Shown here: piece by piece, positions 10,683 to 56,964 of the stretch
Position numbering within the stretch: position 1 is the first letter of the stretch
Layout of the letters: every line of letters starts with the position of its first letter
From: Armatimonadota bacterium
GTDB lineage: Bacteria > Armatimonadota > HRBIN16
Assembly (NCBI GenBank): GCA_026003195.1
Contig: BPGU01000003.1
Coordinates: 310,001-374,000 of the forward strand
Direction: 5' to 3'
DNA length: 64,000 nucleotides
Translations under genes and position numbers: made by a program
Notes under the pieces: model-generated
Seen by the model: the letters and a program-made list of their open reading frames with translations, nothing else
What the model was told of the DNA's origin: nothing
Databases searched by the model: none

Positions 10683-12563
10683 ATGAGCAAAGACAGGTTC
10701 GATGTGATCGTTATCGGAGCGGGGCACGCGGGGTGCGAAGCCGCACTGGCGGCGGCGCGAATGGGTTGCTACACCGCCGTCATCACGCTGGACCCGCATC
10801 GAGTGGCGCATATGCCCTGCAACTGTTCCATCGGAGGACCTGCCAAAGGGCATCTGGTGCGTGAGATCGATGCCCTGGGCGGACAGATGGGCATCGCTAT
10901 AGACCTCAACCTGACCCATGTTCGCTTTGTGGGTACGGGAAAGGGACCCGCTATCCAGACCCTGCGTGCACATGCCGATAAGCAGCTCTATCCGCGCTAT
11001 ATGCGCGCTGTGCTGGAGACCCACCCAGGTATTGACCTGATACCGGGTGAGGCTGTCGACGTCGTGGTGCACGCAGGCAAGGTGGAGGGTGTACGCCTGA
11101 AGCAAGGGCAGGAGCTGCGAGCAAAGGCGGTGATTATCACCTCCGGCACGTTCTTGAACGGATTGATACACATCGGCGAGCAGCAGATACGTGCAGGACG
11201 GGCAGGCGAACCTCCGGCAGTAGGGCTTTCGGAATCTCTGCGACAGCTGGGGTTCCGTCTGGGGCGATTTAAAACGGGAACGACTGCCCGTGTGGCGAAG
11301 GAGAGCGTGGACTTTTCGCGCACGCAGGTCGTGCCATCCGATGTCGATGCACCACCCTTCTCGTTCGTGCATGACAGGCTCCACCCGCCACGAGCGTTGC
11401 TTCCCTGCTGGCAAACGCGCACCACGGAGGAGACGCACCGAATCATCCGCGAGAACCTGCACCGTTCCGCGCTGTACGGCGGCAGGATTACAGGGGTCGG
11501 TCCGCGCTACTGTCCTTCCATCGAGGATAAGATCGTGCGATTCCCCGACAAGGAGTCGCATCCGGTGTTTCTCGAGCAGGAGGGCTGGGATACCAACGAG
11601 TTGTATGTGCAGGGCATGAGCACCAGCCTGCCCGAGGAGGTGCAACTGGCTTTTCTGCGTACCCTGCCCGGTCTGGAAGAGGTAGTGATGATCCGCCCAG
11701 GTTACGCGGTGGAGTACGATATGGTATACCCCGACCAGCTGAAGCCTACTTTGATGACCCATGCGGTCGCAGGGCTGTTTCTCGCCGGGCAAATCAACGG
11801 TACTTCCGGTTATGAGGAGGCAGCCGCGCAGGGGCTGGTAGCGGGCATCAATGCCGCACTGTACGTGCAGGCACGCGAGCCGATGGTTCTGGAGCGGCAT
11901 ACCGGTTACATTGGTGTACTGATTGACGACCTTATCACCAAGGGAGTGCAGGACCCCTATCGGATGCTCACCGCGCGAGCGGAATTTCGCCTTGCCCTGC
12001 GCCACGATAATGCCGACCTGCGCCTGACCCCCATGGGCAGGCAGGTGGGGCTGGTGGATGATCTGCGCTGGAAGCGTTTCCTCGCGAAACGCGAGGCGAT
12101 AGAGCGTGAAACCCGCCGATTGCAAGAAACCCTGCTCACTGGCAAGCATAATCCGCTCCTGCAGGAACACGGTCTTGCGCCGGTGGACGGACCTACCAGT
12201 CTGTATGAGCTGCTGCGTCGCCCGGAGGTCACCTACGAGACCCTGTTGCGCCTGGTGCCTGTGGACGAACCTGCCTCGCGCGAGGTGGCGGAGCAGATAG
12301 AACTGCAGGCGAAGTACGAGGGTTTCCTGCGCCGCCAGCAACAGCAGGTGGCGGAACATCAGAGGCTGGAGGGACTGCTCATCCCTGAAGATACGGACTA
12401 CAACACGATACGCGGTCTCTCACATGAAGGACGCGAGAAGCTTTCGCGGGTGCGCCCGCGCAGTGTGGGACAAGCCTCCCGTATCCCAGGCGTGCGCCCC
12501 TCCGATATCGCCGCGCTGTTAATATACCTGAAGGGACGGCAAGCCGTCTTGCTCACCGGATAA
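10683..12563 (+). CDS. mnmG: tRNA uridine-5-carboxymethylaminomethyl synthesis enzyme MnmG (GidA)
   Basis: 626 residues, the full family length. With MnmE it installs the carboxymethylaminomethyl group on wobble uridine 34 of several tRNAs, using FAD, NADH and methylene-tetrahydrofolate. Seen: FAD-binding [19 protein letters not shown] near the start, [22 protein letters not shown] with the catalytic cysteine region, [25 protein letters not shown] and the C-terminal helical domain [28 protein letters not shown]-like region (positions about 12411-12490) that binds MnmE and tRNA. mnmE is not in the window. Confidence 0.97.
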
Positions 12564-12565
12564 CC

Positions 12566-12728
12566 TGTTCGCCGCTATTCACGGTGCCGGGCTCATGGTG
12601 TATATCTTCATATGGGCGCTGTTTCCGGCATGGTTGTTTCTGCGGTATCGTTCGCTTTACCCGTGTCTTCTCATGCACGCACTGAACAATGTGTTTGTGG
12701 ACATCGTGGTGCCGATGTTCCTCAGCAG
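12566..12728 (+). pseudogene. remnant of a CPBP-family intramembrane protease
   Basis: Directly after the mnmG stop an open frame reads LFAAIHGAGLMVYIFIWALF and goes on to FLRYRSLYPCLLMHALNNV. The pair H-x-x-x near the start and the H-A-x-x-N of the last conserved helix match the C-terminal two helices of CPBP (Abi/CaaX-like) membrane proteases. The first half, including the EE motif, is missing and the frame runs into a dispersed repeat at 12737. Most likely a decayed fragment left by a deletion or insertion next to mnmG; an ATG at 12595 could still be read. Confidence 0.6.
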
Positions 12729-12736
12729 ATCACCTC

Positions 12737-12767
12737 GGTGGAGGGCGAGGCTCCCGCCGAGCCGTTG
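12737..12767 (-). repeat. dispersed GC-rich repeat (copy 3, minus orientation)
   Basis: GGAGGGCGAGGCTCCCGCCG followed by AGCC, the reverse complement of the core at 4555-4578. It follows the CPBP remnant. The rest of the gap 12564-12914 holds that remnant, a purine/C-rich stretch and the promoter at 12822-12850. Confidence 0.75.
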
Positions 12768-12821
12768 GGGAGCGAGGTGGAATCTTCCGAAAAATTTTTC
12801 CCCGCTCCCCCGCCCAAATGC

Positions 12822-12850
12822 TTGACAACCATGTAGGGAGGTGATATAGT
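12822..12850 (+). promoter_or_regulatory. strong promoter in front of the Rhs cassette array
   Basis: TTGACA (12822-12827), exactly 17 bases, TATAGT (12845-12850): one mismatch to consensus overall. Transcription would start near 12857, about 55 bases ahead of the first cassette. No other promoter of this quality is seen within the array. Confidence 0.75.
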
Positions 12851-12914
12851 GTCACCAGTAGCGCAGCTCCCGTAGTGTGGCGAAAATCTCCAGAGGACGA
12901 CGAGTGCGCTGTAC

Positions 12915-13526
12915 TTGCAGGGCATTTCGCTGGTGCGCCGAAACAACGAGTGGCATCACTTTGACCCGTTAGGCACGGCAGGGGTGTTCACGAACGGCAG
13001 CGCATCGGTGGTCAGCAATAACCTGTATGATGTGTTCGGGGTGTTGCGGTACCAGCAGGGCAGCGCCGAGACGCCTGTGCTCCGTTGTGTGCTGCGAAAA
13101 GGCGAAGACGAGATTTCTTGGCTTGCTACTCGTGGGCTCCTTACCCACCGATTGCTATTTATCAGCAGACATCTGCGCCCGCTGTCGGGTGGGAGCGTAC
13201 CAAGTGTAGGCGAGCAGGACGATCGGCTAAAGTACTGCAAAGGTCTCTATGAAACCTGTATGGATATGGCAAGGAGCCAACATAAGTCTTGTGTTGAACT
13301 GTGCACCGTGAGTTTCCTGACATGCGCATCTCTCTGCTTCTTTGCTGGTCCTCTCGCGCCGGAATGCCATTTAGGCTGTCTCACCGCGTACGGCGCGTGT
13401 CGGATGGGGTGTGCAATTCTCAAATATGAGAAGGAGAGAGGGCGCGAACAGATATTCTGGTACTGTATGAGAGGAAAGCCGGGACTAGTTCCCATTCCTC
13501 CTTCAGCACCGCCTGCACTGCAGTAG
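12915..13526 (+). CDS. headless Rhs C-terminal cassette 1 with cysteine-rich tip
   Basis: 203 residues from TTG 12915; CTG 12909 is also possible, and AGAGG at 12892-12896 fits that start slightly better. Residues 1-50 are the end of an Rhs/YD core: QGISLVRRNNEWHHFDPLG, then YDVFGVLRYQQGSAETP. All upstream YD repeats of a normal Rhs protein are absent. The middle (about 55-90) does not match cassettes 2 and 3 and may be out of frame. The tip, from about residue 97, has some 15 cysteines with a hydrophobic core (CTVSFLTCASLCFFAG, then CHLGCLTAYGACRMGC). In Rhs systems this part is the toxin; here toxicity is only inferred. Confidence 0.7.
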   Translation: MQGISLVRRNNEWHHFDPLGTAGVFTNGSASVVSNNLYDVFGVLRYQQGSAETPVLRCVLRKGEDEISWLATRGLLTHRLLFISRHLRPLSGGSVPSVGEQDDRLKYCKGLYETCMDMARSQHKSCVELCTVSFLTCASLCFFAGPLAPECHLGCLTAYGACRMGCAILKYEKERGREQIFWYCMRGKPGLVPIPPSAPPALQ

Positions 13527-13628
13527 CAACCAATGCATTGAATCTTTCTAGCAAACTCTACGGGCTGGGCACCATGTCAAATCATGTGTCGCCTAGCCCA
13601 CTTTGACAGGCCTGAGGAGGTGTCGCAG

Positions 13629-14300
13629 ATGGCAGAGGTTTGGCAGTGGCTTGGTTCCCTGTTTAGCGCAGAGGGGCGCAGCCTCATGATTACTGTGATG
13701 CGCTGGATAATGGTGTATGTAATACCTTTGGTAGCTGCCTACATGGTCGGGGGTCATTTAGTAGATAGGAAAATACGGAGGCTTTCGAGTTTAGCTGGCG
13801 AGGCTGTGCGCGCAGGCAGGCATGAAGAGGCATTAAAAGGATACGCGCGCTGTGCATACCTTATTCATTTGTTCGAATCCCTGTATGGTAGGCGATGGAG
13901 CGTTGATGAATGGAACGAGCCCCTAGGTGACCTGTTTTCCAGTTTGGGCAAGCATTCAACTGCAGCCTACTTCTACACGCGCGAGGTTCTCAGGCAGCTA
14001 AAGAGAGATGACTTTCGGACATATTTAGAGCATCCTGCTGCGCTCACCCCAGGTACCGAGATTACTCTCCATGATGCGATCCTGTATGAAAAGCTGGGCA
14101 AGACTCTTTTAGAAGCTGACTGCGCAGAGGAGGCAATTGTCTGGTTGCGGCGAGCAGCATCTGCTTATGAACATAAGGCAAGCACGTGGGCCTTGTTAGG
14201 CGAAGCATACAAACGGACTGGCAATCAAAGGTTGGCTGAAGAAGCACAGGGACGGGCTGCGTCTTCTTCGGACGTCATCCCTAATGACACCACTGGTTAA
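13629..14300 (+). CDS. membrane-anchored TPR protein, candidate partner/immunity of cassette 1
   Basis: 223 residues from ATG 13629, which has GAGGAGG eight bases upstream; an earlier in-frame ATG at 13584 has none. One membrane helix (ITVMRWIMVYVIPLVAAYMV, about residues 20-40) is followed by a cytoplasmic helical part with TPR-like repeats (AGRHEEALKGYARCAYL, HSTAAYFYTREVLRQL, DCAEEAIVWLRRAASAY, ASTWALLGEAYKRTGNQRLAEEA). Its last 17 bases overlap the start of cassette 2. No family function is known; its position directly after a Rhs tip is where immunity genes sit. Confidence 0.65.
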   Translation: MAEVWQWLGSLFSAEGRSLMITVMRWIMVYVIPLVAAYMVGGHLVDRKIRRLSSLAGEAVRAGRHEEALKGYARCAYLIHLFESLYGRRWSVDEWNEPLGDLFSSLGKHSTAAYFYTREVLRQLKRDDFRTYLEHPAALTPGTEITLHDAILYEKLGKTLLEADCAEEAIVWLRRAASAYEHKASTWALLGEAYKRTGNQRLAEEAQGRAASSSDVIPNDTTG

Positions 14301-14823
14301 CGCAGCGGGCACAGCGGGGGTAATTACGAACGTGAGTGCACAGGTGATAAGCCACAACCTGTACGATGTATTCGGGGTGTTGCGGTATCAACAGGGCAAT
14401 GCGGAAACGCCGTGGAGGTGGGTTTGGATCCAAGCAAGTGAAGAGGGGCTGAGAATGGCTCTCCATGGACAGATCTACTTGCCGGAGCGGATGCTCATTC
14501 CGCTGTTTAGTAACGGCTACGACTCGCGCAAAGACTGTCCTTTTAGTCAAGGTGGACCTTACCCACGCTCTATGTGCGATCAGTGTGTTAAAGGCTGTAT
14601 CGCAGACGCTAACCGTTTACGTGAGCAGTGTGAGCGTAAACAAGATATCTTCTGCGATTCTGCACGCGTCATTTGTTTGCTTCTGCCTGGCCCTCTGTTC
14701 AAGGTTTTCTGCTTCACAACGGGGATGCTCTGCAGTCATGATGATACTTGTAACGCTAGATACTCTGGAATGGTAAGCTGGTGTATGGGCTGTTTTGACA
14801 CATGTGTTCGCAATAGCAGGTGA
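14284..14823 (+). CDS. headless Rhs C-terminal cassette 2 with cysteine-rich tip
   Basis: 179 residues; the ATG at 14284 overlaps the preceding TPR gene and there is no ribosome site, so translation is probably coupled. MTPLVNAAGTAGVITNVSAQ and the following YDVFGVLRYQQGNAETPWRW reproduce the Rhs core end, and the next 25 residues (EEGLRMALHGQIYLPERMLI) match the ARYYDPxxGRFLS-like step before a Rhs tip. The tip (from about residue 95) is cysteine-rich: CDQCVKGC, CERKQDIFCDSARVIC, CFTTGMLC, CMGCFDTC. Codon use here is more AT-rich than in the flanking housekeeping genes. Confidence 0.7.
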   Translation: MTPLVNAAGTAGVITNVSAQVISHNLYDVFGVLRYQQGNAETPWRWVWIQASEEGLRMALHGQIYLPERMLIPLFSNGYDSRKDCPFSQGGPYPRSMCDQCVKGCIADANRLREQCERKQDIFCDSARVICLLLPGPLFKVFCFTTGMLCSHDDTCNARYSGMVSWCMGCFDTCVRNSR

Positions 14824-14838
14824 GTGTGGAAGAGACAG

Positions 14839-15363
14839 ATGCTAGCGACGGGTGTAGCAATCTTCATACTTGCAGTGATAGCTCCGCCCCTTTTCCTGTA
14901 TTGCAGCCTTTTGGCTTATGTGCAGGCAAGGTCGGGATTAGGGGTAGGAACTCATCACCCGACGGATTACTTCCGGCGGGGTATAGTGCTTCCGTATCTC
15001 TTCGTGGGCGCGTGGTTCGCCGCTGGTTACCTTCTTGCGAGGTTGGGCCAGGCGAAGCTGGAAGAGATTGCCTTCCGTGCTGCGCACTGTCTGTTCACCC
15101 GAACGGGCAATTTCAGCGTTGTCGCGCAGTTCCCCCAGCAGGTGCCTCAAGAGACTGAAGGCTACTGGCTATTGTCCTTTGTCGTATTTTTAATCGTGTC
15201 CGAACTTGCCAGGCGGCGGCTTCTGCAAGGAGAGCCTGTGCGCTACGTTGATGTCACTCTTATCTGGTTATTGCCAGCAGTTACCTACTGGATAATCGCC
15301 GGATTATATGTTTACCATGCCCTTGTTCGCTTTATTCCTTTGTATGATCTCTGCAGTGGATAG
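14839..15363 (+). CDS. four-helix membrane protein, candidate partner/immunity of cassette 2
   Basis: 174 residues from ATG 14839 (GGAAGAG just upstream; a GTG at 14824 is an alternative). Four hydrophobic segments: IFILAVIAPPLFLYCSLLAY, LPYLFVGAWFAAGYLLA, YWLLSFVVFLIVSELA and VTLIWLLPAVTYWIIAGLYV. No known family. It follows cassette 2 within 16 bases and precedes cassette 3, so an immunity role against a membrane-acting tip is a reasonable inference, not shown. Confidence 0.6.
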   Translation: MLATGVAIFILAVIAPPLFLYCSLLAYVQARSGLGVGTHHPTDYFRRGIVLPYLFVGAWFAAGYLLARLGQAKLEEIAFRAAHCLFTRTGNFSVVAQFPQQVPQETEGYWLLSFVVFLIVSELARRRLLQGEPVRYVDVTLIWLLPAVTYWIIAGLYVYHALVRFIPLYDLCSG

Positions 15364-15377
15364 CAAAGATACGTCCT

Positions 15378-15944
15378 ATGAGGGAAGTACGTCGAGGTCG
15401 AAACCGTGAACGCCTGTTAGGCACGGCAGGGGTGATTACGAACGGCAGCGCATCGGTGGTCAGCAATAACCTGTATGATGTGTTCGGGGTGTTGCGGTAT
15501 CAGCAGGGCAGTGCGGAAACGCCGTGGAGGTGGAAGTATAAAAAAACAGGTGAGGAAGGTTTTCAAATTGCACGTAACAGGATGATACTTCCGGAGCGCA
15601 ACCTGGTCCCGTTGTGGGAGGTGATACTGCCTCCTCCACCTCCAAGCGAGGACCCTGGTTACTGGCAGTGTGTCTATCAGTGTGTTCGCCCAATGTGGAA
15701 AAACAGAAGATTCCCAGAGGTCGATTGGGCTTGCCTCGCCGCAGCAGTGTGCTGTGCGGCAGACCCTGAACCGGTGACCAAATCTATCTGCTGTGGCATC
15801 TCCACAGCCTGCCTGGGGGTACGGGCGACCGAAATGGCTTGTATCGTCTCGTTCTGCCTTCTCAAGTGCCAGGTCGACCGTAAGCCGGTTCCGCCAGTAG
15901 CCACCAAAGCAATACCATGCGTGCAGGAGGTCGTTGAACAATGA
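15378..15944 (+). CDS. headless Rhs C-terminal cassette 3 with cysteine-rich tip
   Basis: 188 residues. The N-terminus MREVRRGRNRERLLGTAGVI joins a short basic lead directly to the Rhs core end at LGTAG; the following 100 bases are nearly identical to cassette 1 (15417-15520 against 12963-13066). Then comes EEGFQIARNRMILPERNLV, as in cassette 2, a proline-rich hinge (LPPPPPSEDP) and a cysteine-rich tip: CVYQCVRPM, CLAAAVCCAADP, CCGISTAC, CIVSFCLLKC. The stop overlaps the next start as ATGA. A recent duplication of the conserved part with replacement of the tip best explains the pattern. Confidence 0.72.
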   Translation: MREVRRGRNRERLLGTAGVITNGSASVVSNNLYDVFGVLRYQQGSAETPWRWKYKKTGEEGFQIARNRMILPERNLVPLWEVILPPPPPSEDPGYWQCVYQCVRPMWKNRRFPEVDWACLAAAVCCAADPEPVTKSICCGISTACLGVRATEMACIVSFCLLKCQVDRKPVPPVATKAIPCVQEVVEQ

Positions 15945-16303
15945 ACAAGCAGTACCTCATCAGCTGGCTGTTGATCGGGCTCCTAGTGGGGTTAGGCTTT
16001 GGCACGCGCGCGGTAGCCTTAGTCTCCTCTATGACCCCCGAGGTCGCTCGATGGAGTATCCTGTTGACACTGTCCGCAGCAAGTTTGCTACTTGCTACAC
16101 TTTGGCGCCCCTTCGAACCGTATCCCTTGTGGGCGCGTCTTGCCAGCCTACTGGCAATCAGCGGGTGGGTCGCACTGGTAGCAGGATACCCGTTGTGGGG
16201 GGGCGGAGAGTCCTACGGTCTCGGATGGACGTTCTCTGTATACCTGGTCATCGCGGGGATAGTGTTTGAGTTCTACCGCCAGGCCAGAAAGCGAACGGCT
16301 TGA
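15941..16303 (+). CDS. four-helix membrane protein, candidate partner/immunity of cassette 3
   Basis: 120 residues; ATG overlaps the cassette 3 stop (ATGA) and has AGGAGG ten bases upstream. Four predicted helices: ISWLLIGLLVGLGFGTRAVA, WSILLTLSAASLLLATLW, LASLLAISGWVALVAGY and WTFSVYLVIAGIVFEFY. No family recognised. The translational coupling to the cysteine-rich cassette is what is expected of a toxin-immunity pair. It is the last gene of the array. Confidence 0.62.
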   Translation: MNKQYLISWLLIGLLVGLGFGTRAVALVSSMTPEVARWSILLTLSAASLLLATLWRPFEPYPLWARLASLLAISGWVALVAGYPLWGGGESYGLGWTFSVYLVIAGIVFEFYRQARKRTA

Positions 16304-16371
16304 GCCATGCACGCTCTTGGGGGAACGGACAGTACCTGTCCCCCGCAGGCGTGGCGCCGATAGTCAAAAAT

Positions 16372-17199
16372 CTACCCCTTCAACGCGCCAGCCACCATCG
16401 TCTCGTGGATGCGGTCGCGGAACAGCCAGTACACCAGCAGCACAGGTAGCATGACAATGACCAGCCCCGCAAACAGCGCGCCCCAGTCGCTCTGGTACTG
16501 CTCTACCATCAGCAGGTTGGCGATGCCCAGTGGCAGAGTACGTCGTTCGTCACTGCTCATGATGACCAGTGCCAGCGGATACTCGTTCCATAGCCCGATA
16601 GCGTTGAATACCCCTACCACGATGATGCCCGGCTTCGCCAGTGGCAACATCACTTTCCAGAACGCCCGCGCGTGACCGCAACCGTCGATCAGCGCAGCCT
16701 CGAGCATCTCCTGAGGCAGGGTCTGGAAAAATCCCGTGAGCACGAACACCGTGAAGGGCAGGGAGTACGCCACATACACCAGCGTTAAACCGTGCAGAGT
16801 ATCCAGTAACCCCAGACGCGCCAGCAGCAGGAACAGCGGCACGATGGTGAGGAAGAGGGGGAACATCATCCCACCCAGAAACGCGCCGAACAACCAGTTT
16901 GCGCCGCGAAACGGGTAACGGGCGAAGATGTATGCCGCCATCGCACCGACGGGCAGCAGGATCGCCAGAGCTGCCAGCGTCACGATCAGGCTGTTCATGA
17001 AGTAGCGCGCGATACCCGCTTCCTGCCACGCTCGTACGAAGTTCTGCCACTGTAGGGTGTGCGGCAGCCCCCAGGGCGCAGTGAATATCTCCGCCCCTGT
17101 TTTGAAAGAGGTCATCAGCACCCAGAGCAGGGGCACCACCACAGAGAGCGCAAAGAGCGCCAGACATATATTGATCAGCCATCTATAGAGCGTGCTCAC
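16372..17199 (-). CDS. carbohydrate ABC transporter permease, MalG type
   Basis: 275 residues from a GTG start overlapping the preceding permease stop (GTGA). Six membrane helices and the cytoplasmic EAA loop EAALIDGCGHARAFWKVMLPLAKPGI-like region (about residues 185-210) that contacts the ATPase. It is the third gene of a binding protein-permease-permease operon of the CUT1 type, which imports mono- to oligosaccharides. C-terminus MVAGALKG is typical. No ATPase gene is adjacent. Confidence 0.93.
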   Translation of the reverse strand: MSTLYRWLINICLALFALSVVVPLLWVLMTSFKTGAEIFTAPWGLPHTLQWQNFVRAWQEAGIARYFMNSLIVTLAALAILLPVGAMAAYIFARYPFRGANWLFGAFLGGMMFPLFLTIVPLFLLLARLGLLDTLHGLTLVYVAYSLPFTVFVLTGFFQTLPQEMLEAALIDGCGHARAFWKVMLPLAKPGIIVVGVFNAIGLWNEYPLALVIMSSDERRTLPLGIANLLMVEQYQSDWGALFAGLVIVMLPVLLVYWLFRDRIHETMVAGALKG

Positions 17200-18083
17200 G
17201 CTCTGCCCTCCTGCGGGTTGTGGCGAAACAGCGCGAGGATCGCTCCGCTCAACGCCATCACCAGCACGAAGTTCACCACTGCCAGGGCGGTGGCGTAGCC
17301 GAATTCACTGTGCTTGAATGCCTGCTCGTATAGATAGGTGAGCATCACTTCGGTAGCGCGATCGGGTCCCCCCTGCGTCATCAGGAACACCAGTGAGAAG
17401 ATGTTCATCGTGCCTATCGCCATATACACCAGCGCGATGCGCAACACTGCCCACAGCATGGGCAAGGTCACATAGCGCAGTCGGGTTAGCCCCATGGCTC
17501 CGTCCAGCGTTGCCGCTTCCATCACATCGGGGGGGATGGTGCGCAGGGCGGCGGCGAACAGCATGATGTAAAACCCCAGTGCGTGCCACACATGCGCCAC
17601 ACCGATAGAAGCCAGCGCGGTGGACCTCTCACCCAGCCACGCAATCGCCCATCGCTCCAGCCCTGCCGCTTTCAAGGTGGCGTTCAGGATACCAAAAGAG
17701 GGGTTCAGGATAAACATCCACAGGATGGCGACTACCACCAGTGAAATCACCTGCGGAAACAGGTAGACCGCACGCAAAAAACGCGCCGTGCCCGTCTCGT
17801 GCCCGATGGCGTGCGCCAGCGCAATCGCCATCGCCAGGATGACGACACTCGTGCCCACGAACAGCAACAGGTTGTGACGTATCGCCAGCCACACGATGGG
17901 GTCCGCAAAAAGCTGGCGAAAGTTCTCCAGCCCGACGAAGGTGCGGTTGGCGGAGATGCCTCGCCAGCGGTATAGCGAGAAGGCAAACGCCTGCACCACC
18001 GGCATCACCACAAACAGGGCGTACAGCACGGTTGCCGGTAGCAGAAAACCCGCCATGAACGCTGACCGCGCCTGGGATGTCAT
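17196..18083 (-). CDS. carbohydrate ABC transporter permease, MalF type
   Basis: 295 residues, six helices, starting LLPATVLYALFVVMPVVQAF as usual for sugar permeases. The EAA loop is EAATLDGAMGLTRLRYVTLP (about residues 195-214). Its ATG overlaps the end of the binding-protein gene by four bases and its end overlaps the next permease by four, so all three are translationally coupled. Confidence 0.93.
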   Translation of the reverse strand: MTSQARSAFMAGFLLPATVLYALFVVMPVVQAFAFSLYRWRGISANRTFVGLENFRQLFADPIVWLAIRHNLLLFVGTSVVILAMAIALAHAIGHETGTARFLRAVYLFPQVISLVVVAILWMFILNPSFGILNATLKAAGLERWAIAWLGERSTALASIGVAHVWHALGFYIMLFAAALRTIPPDVMEAATLDGAMGLTRLRYVTLPMLWAVLRIALVYMAIGTMNIFSLVFLMTQGGPDRATEVMLTYLYEQAFKHSEFGYATALAVVNFVLVMALSGAILALFRHNPQEGRA

Positions 18084-56662: not shown

Positions 56663-56683
56663 GCAGGGGGGTTAGGTTTCTCT

Positions 56684-56757
56684 GCCTAACGGGTCAAAGT
56701 GATGCCATTCACTGTTTCGACGTACCAAAGAGATGCCCTGCAAGTACAGGGCACTGG
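56684..56757 (-). pseudogene. Rhs core scrap
   Basis: On the minus strand the frame reads ALYLQGISLVRRNSEWHHFD followed by PLGRET and a stop. It matches the junction just before cassette 1 (12906-12971) at both protein and DNA level, about 55 of 67 bases. Upstream sequence on this strand is not recognisably Rhs and no start is evident. A dead fragment of a Rhs gene, 44 kb from the array. Confidence 0.7.
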
Positions 56758-56964
56758 TCGTCCAGCTGCCCCCTCCAGCGGCTTCTGCTGCTCTACCAAT
56801 TCACCCGCACCGCACGCCACGCCACACGGATAGCGCGCCCAGACACCGTTCAGGTAGTCCTTGCGCCACCGCATGGGGATTTCGTCACACGACGAGAGTT
56901 GCACTACCGCTTACACCATAGGACATCTCTGTGTCGTTGTCAAGCAGCAGTCAACGACACCACC

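Follow-up and report, generated by a model that had tools for sequence, protein, structure and literature searches.

Orphan rhs-CT/rhsI modules of Enterobacteriaceae are displaced C-terminal fragments that keep part of the conserved core, are accompanied by an immunity gene and mostly have no translation start; they come to be expressed when they recombine with that gene's full-length copy (Koskiniemi et al., 2014, PMC3967940; Poole et al., 2011, PMC3150448). Orphan cdiA-CT/cdiI arrays belong to CdiA/CdiB two-partner systems and not to Rhs. They are transcribed from an upstream promoter with the main cdiA present, and in E. coli EC93 the orphan cdiI is produced but cdiA-CT is not (PMC3150448). 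The silent MafB-CT cassettes of Neisseria lack an initiation codon and are each followed by an immunity gene, on an unrelated carrier whose full-length mafB is present (PMC4287609). In polyimmunity loci (PMC3482391) and the orphan immunity arrays of the Vibrio cholerae T6SS (PMC5361080), immunity banks outlast the displaced toxin.

The array described here lies in a 64,000-nucleotide stretch of the genome of an Armatimonadota bacterium (hereafter the window). It is a headless variant of known orphan Rhs/CDI module arrays, new in its tip families and in its phylum, and a literature search found no paper on Armatimonadota Rhs tip arrays. As in the enterobacterial modules, its C-terminal fragments with partial core are each paired with a putative immunity gene. 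However, the main gene has disappeared, leaving its promoter immediately in front of the orphans; the family's lead genes have signal peptides, a search for a T6SS sheath gene found none, and the tips are cysteine-rich and without DPxGL. With the cdi arrays it would share transcription from an upstream promoter that yields immunity protein and no toxin fragment, and with the MafB-CT cassettes the immunity gene behind each tip. Membership of the polyimmunity loci was rejected, since those have no interleaved toxin tips (PMC3482391), whereas here tips remain between the partner genes and interrupt them. Probably the array has lost its lead gene by deletion and is now an orphan Rhs tip/immunity array, from which immunity proteins are made while silent tips are stored until recombination places them on a full-length head. 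Comparison with related sequences shows its structure and history; its function we infer.

Layout of the array and its Rhs family

Below, G000 is the source genome, G001, G002, G004, G005 and G009 are other genomes compared, and L numbers denote fetched loci. The array is flanked on the left by mnmG (gidA; 10683..12563, forward) and on the right by an ABC transporter permease (16372..17199, reverse); all features between them are on the forward strand. Six ORFs were verified (12915-13526, 13584-14300, 14284-14823, 14824-15363, 15378-15944 and 15941-16303), and the reported 17-base overlap (14284) and ATGA (15941) are also present. Two partner genes likely start further downstream, at ATG 13629 (GAGGAGGTG site) instead of 13584 for partner 1 and at ATG 14839 instead of 14824 for partner 2. 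All three tip genes share the phrase YDVFGVLRYQQGxAETP reported for them and each retains the 45-55 C-terminal residues of an Rhs core, the core tails lying at 12909..13076 (LYLQGISLVRRNNEWHHFDPLGTAG...AETP), 14308..14421 and 15417..15533. To the left lies a fragment of a CPBP-like membrane protein (12595..12825, assigned by eye), a 94% identical piece of which adjoins an Rhs tail fragment in G005 (L101).

The window was said to hold no full-length Rhs gene, and none is present, but it does contain a further tail fragment and the genome has many Rhs loci elsewhere. This lone fragment of the array's core tail (56683-56904, reverse strand, with the tail stretch at 56683-56763) is far from the array and has unrelated genes on either side.

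TIGR03696 (Rhs-associated core end) matched 51 places in the genome, this array not among them, and the DPxGL boundary is absent from the array's cores, which end in AETPWRW...YLPER. The tail consensus is 88-95% identical to the C-terminal core of the proteins L108 and L107, which match RHS_repeat at E 1.9e-94 and 5.2e-97, the core homology expected of an Rhs orphan module. The array's family is a divergent Rhs branch. Elsewhere in its genome, array DNA finds 26 matches, made up of arrays at C1:164k, C1:190-197k, C2:839-849k, C3:78-81k and C4:279-282k, single places at C1:1323k and C4:44k, and the window fragment at 56683. The tail, carried by at least seven other loci, is present 26 times in this genome and occurs in 8 of 9 other genomes of the genus; named records with it belong to Armatimonadota/Chthonomonadia, including bacterium HRbin16, to whose genus the window probably belongs. 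A second, canonical Rhs family contributes about 50 more core ends, located in cassette arrays on G000:C1, C2, C3, C4, C9, C12 and C21, one such array being near-duplicated between C1:1-12k and C9.

Promoter retention and loss of the head

The promoter predicted upstream of the array, a sigma-70-type TTGACA-N17-TATAGT, was confirmed at 12822..12850, with 11 of 12 consensus positions and a spacer of 17. At the scan threshold, 2 promoter-like sites were found against 2.5 expected in shuffles, which means that a match of this grade is in itself nothing rare. The same promoter is kept at 16 loci in 6 genomes (the window and 15 other lead-gene loci), with a -35 of TTGACA (once TTGACT) and a -10 that starts with TAT, 17-18 apart; since this holds despite diverged spacers, the conservation is not due to chance. 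On this comparative evidence the array promoter is real. At L012:6743-8806 and L151:6516-8384, this promoter and signal peptide stand in front of another large protein, whose end looks M15-peptidase-like by eye; one leader is thus common to heads of unrelated type.

Alignment with L010, L012 and L013 identifies 12851..12896 as a remnant of the 5' untranslated region of a lead gene. Comparison with head-bearing loci places a deletion junction at 12895..12898, where this remnant meets the Rhs core tail (CTCCAGAGG/ACGACGAG) with a GG overlap as microhomology. Query positions 1-75 (promoter and leader) and 74-254 (tail) of the array are about 1.5, 0.9, 0.1 and 3.2 kb apart at four loci of the same genome, and contiguous in the window array and at C1:164k. 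Missing from the array relative to head-bearing loci are the ribosome site, the signal peptide (MLRRFPSLRTLATVCILSLTVQVAAPLFAS) and the RHS body; the heads that remain in this genome are short, with signal peptide and body out of frame. The identical 20-bp junction occurs twice in the genome, in the window and at C1:164482, whose 238-bp surroundings share just 79% identity, and was found in none of the other species searched. At C1:164k the tip has been lost and an immunity-like ORF follows in frame. At L177 and L180 of G001 a different junction links promoter and leader to the core, and a third type, at G000:C4, has the leader running into the core at RRWRKDY. Since several distinct junction types occur at different loci, head loss with promoter retention is recurrent. 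The suggestion of a free-standing array was not upheld: the promoter and leader alignment points to a lead gene with its head deleted. The headless condition is best explained by a deletion that brought this gene's promoter, along with some of the 5' leader, directly against the Rhs core tail, rather than by a purpose-built free-standing array.

Tips, partners and competing explanations

Tips 1 to 3 (T1, 13077..13526, 149 aa; T2, 14422..14823, 133 aa; T3, 15534..15944, 136 aa) contain 12, 13 and 12 cysteines, respectively. They had been described as cysteine-rich and unrelated; the first holds, but T2 and T3 are distantly alike, with about 25% identity and cysteine columns in common. T1 is not detectably related to these two (hhalign probability 2.6%). 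Homologs were found in G009:C6 for T1 (61%), at G005:C1:194k, in G002:C21 and in a longer core-bearing ORF of G001:C5 for T2, and in G009:C126, G001:C22 and G001:C81 (an RHS-repeat fusion) for T3, which is frameshifted in G005. None of the three window tips matched a Pfam/NCBIfam family or known toxin family, and a T2/T3 profile had no match among PDB sequences. AlphaFold2 models of T3, made from 6-8 sequences, are mostly helical and of low confidence (pLDDT 51 and 64) and a Foldseek search with the model found nothing (best E 2.4), so no fold is claimed. Halocin C8-like toxins (TIGR04449) were rejected as a family for the tips, with 1 of 36 tips from the genus and phylum matching at E 0.0055 and T1 not at all. 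One member of the tip set has a weak match to Phospholip_A2_4 (E 0.021). By eye, a phospholipase A2-like motif, CGPGHPGSG...CCMAHDTCYD, was seen in the Rhs tip L182:3-980 (G001:C22), suggesting that some tips of the set may be membrane-lipid enzymes.

Proteins that work outside the cytoplasm tend to be cysteine-rich. Taken with the membrane location of the partners, the cysteine-rich tips suggest that the putative toxins have their target in the envelope, be it membrane or periplasm, and not in nucleic acids. Delivery as a T6SS Rhs effector was rejected, since a search of the genome for the VipA/TssB sheath gene (PF05591) gave no match.

A different membrane protein had been predicted behind each tip. 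A membrane-type gene does follow each, but partner 1 (I1, 13629..14300) is not multi-spanning, having one membrane helix and a TPR region; partner 2 (I2, 14839..15363) has about three TM helices. Across the set, hydropathy predicts a TM or signal helix in 43 of 48 partners. Partner 3 (I3, 15941..16303) lacks the last ~62 residues of its G005 version, and because of this C-terminal truncation one pair may be dead. As in Rhs orphan modules, a variable tip is linked to its downstream gene: all three pairs recur in the same order in other species, T1-I1 in G009, T2-I2 in G005 and G002, and T3-I3 in G005, G009 and G001. The dN/dS ratios of tip and partner are 0.14 and 0.14 for T1/I1 (where dS is high, near saturation), 0.40 and 0.45 for T2/I2, and 0.25 and 0.22 for T3/I3, against 0.05-0.07 for the controls mnmG and ABC permease. 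By these ratios, tips and partners are under purifying selection.

The original prediction allowed for an expressed short-toxin system with its own starts. In such a system the short tip proteins would work headless, as toxins or bacteriocins. The upstream promoter, the start codons of the tip ORFs and, in T2, an internal GTG at 14332 whose ribosome site is good (-10.0) are consistent with this, but no ribosome site was found for T1 or T3 (best -3.4 kcal/mol), none of the three tip sequences has a signal peptide, and cysteine-rich proteins would require export. In the window, strong Shine-Dalgarno sites, as judged by anti-Shine-Dalgarno energy, precede I1 (13614..13622) and I3 (15925..15931), with a moderate one (-6.7) for I2. 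The median best energy is -11.6 kcal/mol for 48 partners, including partners behind lead genes, against -6.9 kcal/mol for 38 orphan tips, with a P of 6e-11 that overstates independence because the pairs are partly homologous. Sites better than the background of random start codons belong to 60% of the partners but 3% of the orphan tips, which as a set stand at background level. Short toxins expressed from the array are thus very improbable, and its expected products are immunity proteins.

Two further rival explanations were weighed. An assembly artefact might have removed a long rhs gene, and repetitive RHS heads do break contigs in relatives; yet the exact junction is repeated at a second, diverged locus, the headless leads of G001 carry another junction, and the order of mnmG and ABC permease flanks is the same in G002 and G004, making such an error scarcely credible. 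Decay, in which a broken Rhs locus with no present role is heading for loss, would account for the deleted head, the truncated I3, the frameshift of T3 in G005, the missing tip at C1:164k and the many tail fragments in the genome. It fits poorly with five of the six array genes being intact, dN/dS of 0.14-0.45 in tips and partners, the retention of promoter and partner ribosome sites, and the recurrence of headless leads with differing junctions, and is an unlikely account. In the preferred reading, an orphan tip/immunity array, the promoter would give one transcript translated mainly into partner (immunity) proteins, and because it is mainly these that are made, the cell would be protected against siblings and relatives using the array's tips. 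The tips would form a silent stock, becoming a weapon only once recombined onto a full-length, secreted Rhs head elsewhere.

Full-length heads, tip exchange and implications

Full-length heads exist among relatives. L107 (G002, 1049 aa) and L108 (G001, 1035 aa) have 11-13 RHS repeats and DUF6531, followed by the array-type tail and cysteine-rich tips, and the tip of L107 is homologous to an orphan tip in G000 (L012). A related 1074-aa protein of G047, from another family of the phylum, ends in a cysteine-rich tip with two small hydrophobic ORFs downstream. That the window's tip types occur on Rhs heads is clearest for T3. A T3-like tip is borne by an RHS-repeat ORF in G001:C81, which is cut by the contig end; a T2-like tip on a longer core in G001:C5 is a weaker case, the ORF being itself a headless lead; and for T1 the sole match, of 27%, is to a 1086-aa frame in G047, with no close homolog seen on a full-length Rhs among the relatives searched.

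The proposal that the conserved tail serves for tip exchange is borne out by G005:C6 and G000:C1:190k. The G005:C6 lead gene ends in the tip of the second, orphan cassette at G000:C1:190k, the alignment switching from lead to orphan inside a 115-bp tail stretch, and this switch explains the absence of one tip/partner pair in G005:C6. Recombination of this kind has been shown in Salmonella (PMC3967940). Here tail-mediated recombination is seen, in aligned sequences, between species (G005 and G000), and tips of the family change from orphan to lead position, or back, by way of this ~115-bp tail. Against G005, dS is 0.07 for I3, about 0.3 for T2/I2 and 1.1 for mnmG; the lower values of I3 and T2/I2 hint at more recent exchange between lineages, which is suggestive only, because the ABC permease control is itself low (0.40).

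At G005:C1:50-66k (L102), T3-I3 stands between the left flank of the G000 C1:190k array and the right flank of the window array. mnmG and the ABC permease are adjacent in G004 (121 bp gap), 1.4 kb apart without Rhs in G002 and far apart in G005. This separation and the mixed flanks in G005 indicate that Rhs arrays act as rearrangement sites. When L102 is compared with window 15450-17211 and L010, the breakpoint of a chromosomal rearrangement that separates the two species falls within these Rhs arrays.

In many lead genes of the genus, both Rhs and neighboring heads, poly-G tracts of 6 to 18 G were observed where signal peptide and body meet or close to that point (L107:11185-11292, L118, L119, L120 (G000:C2:839k), L121, L122, L124, L126, L045:11576, L048:16997, L049:15449, L056:11868 and L057:8718). 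In the MLRRF family a tract length divisible by 3 is needed to keep the body in frame, and lengths differ between orthologs (7 vs 8, 10 vs 13). These tracts are candidates for phase variation, with transcription slippage as the alternative; a literature search found no report of Rhs phase variation by homopolymers. A tentative and rather doubtful extension is that promoter-retaining head deletion is a selected, recurring state in the genus, by which a locus for an Rhs weapon becomes an immunity bank driven by the promoter, while poly-G tracts at the signal-peptide junction switch full-length heads elsewhere on and off. If this were true, cells would split defense from offense, the former always on and the latter phase-variable and re-tipped by recombination.

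Orphan Rhs/CDI modules are usually seen behind an intact toxin gene, which leaves undecided whether they are kept as spare weapons or as shields. With headless arrays that carry a promoter, and no weapon at the locus, this can be put to the test. Dozens of undescribed candidate toxin/immunity pairs with cysteine-rich tips are also available in this genus of a little-studied phylum, together with a natural record of how tips are exchanged and how arrays rearrange with one another.
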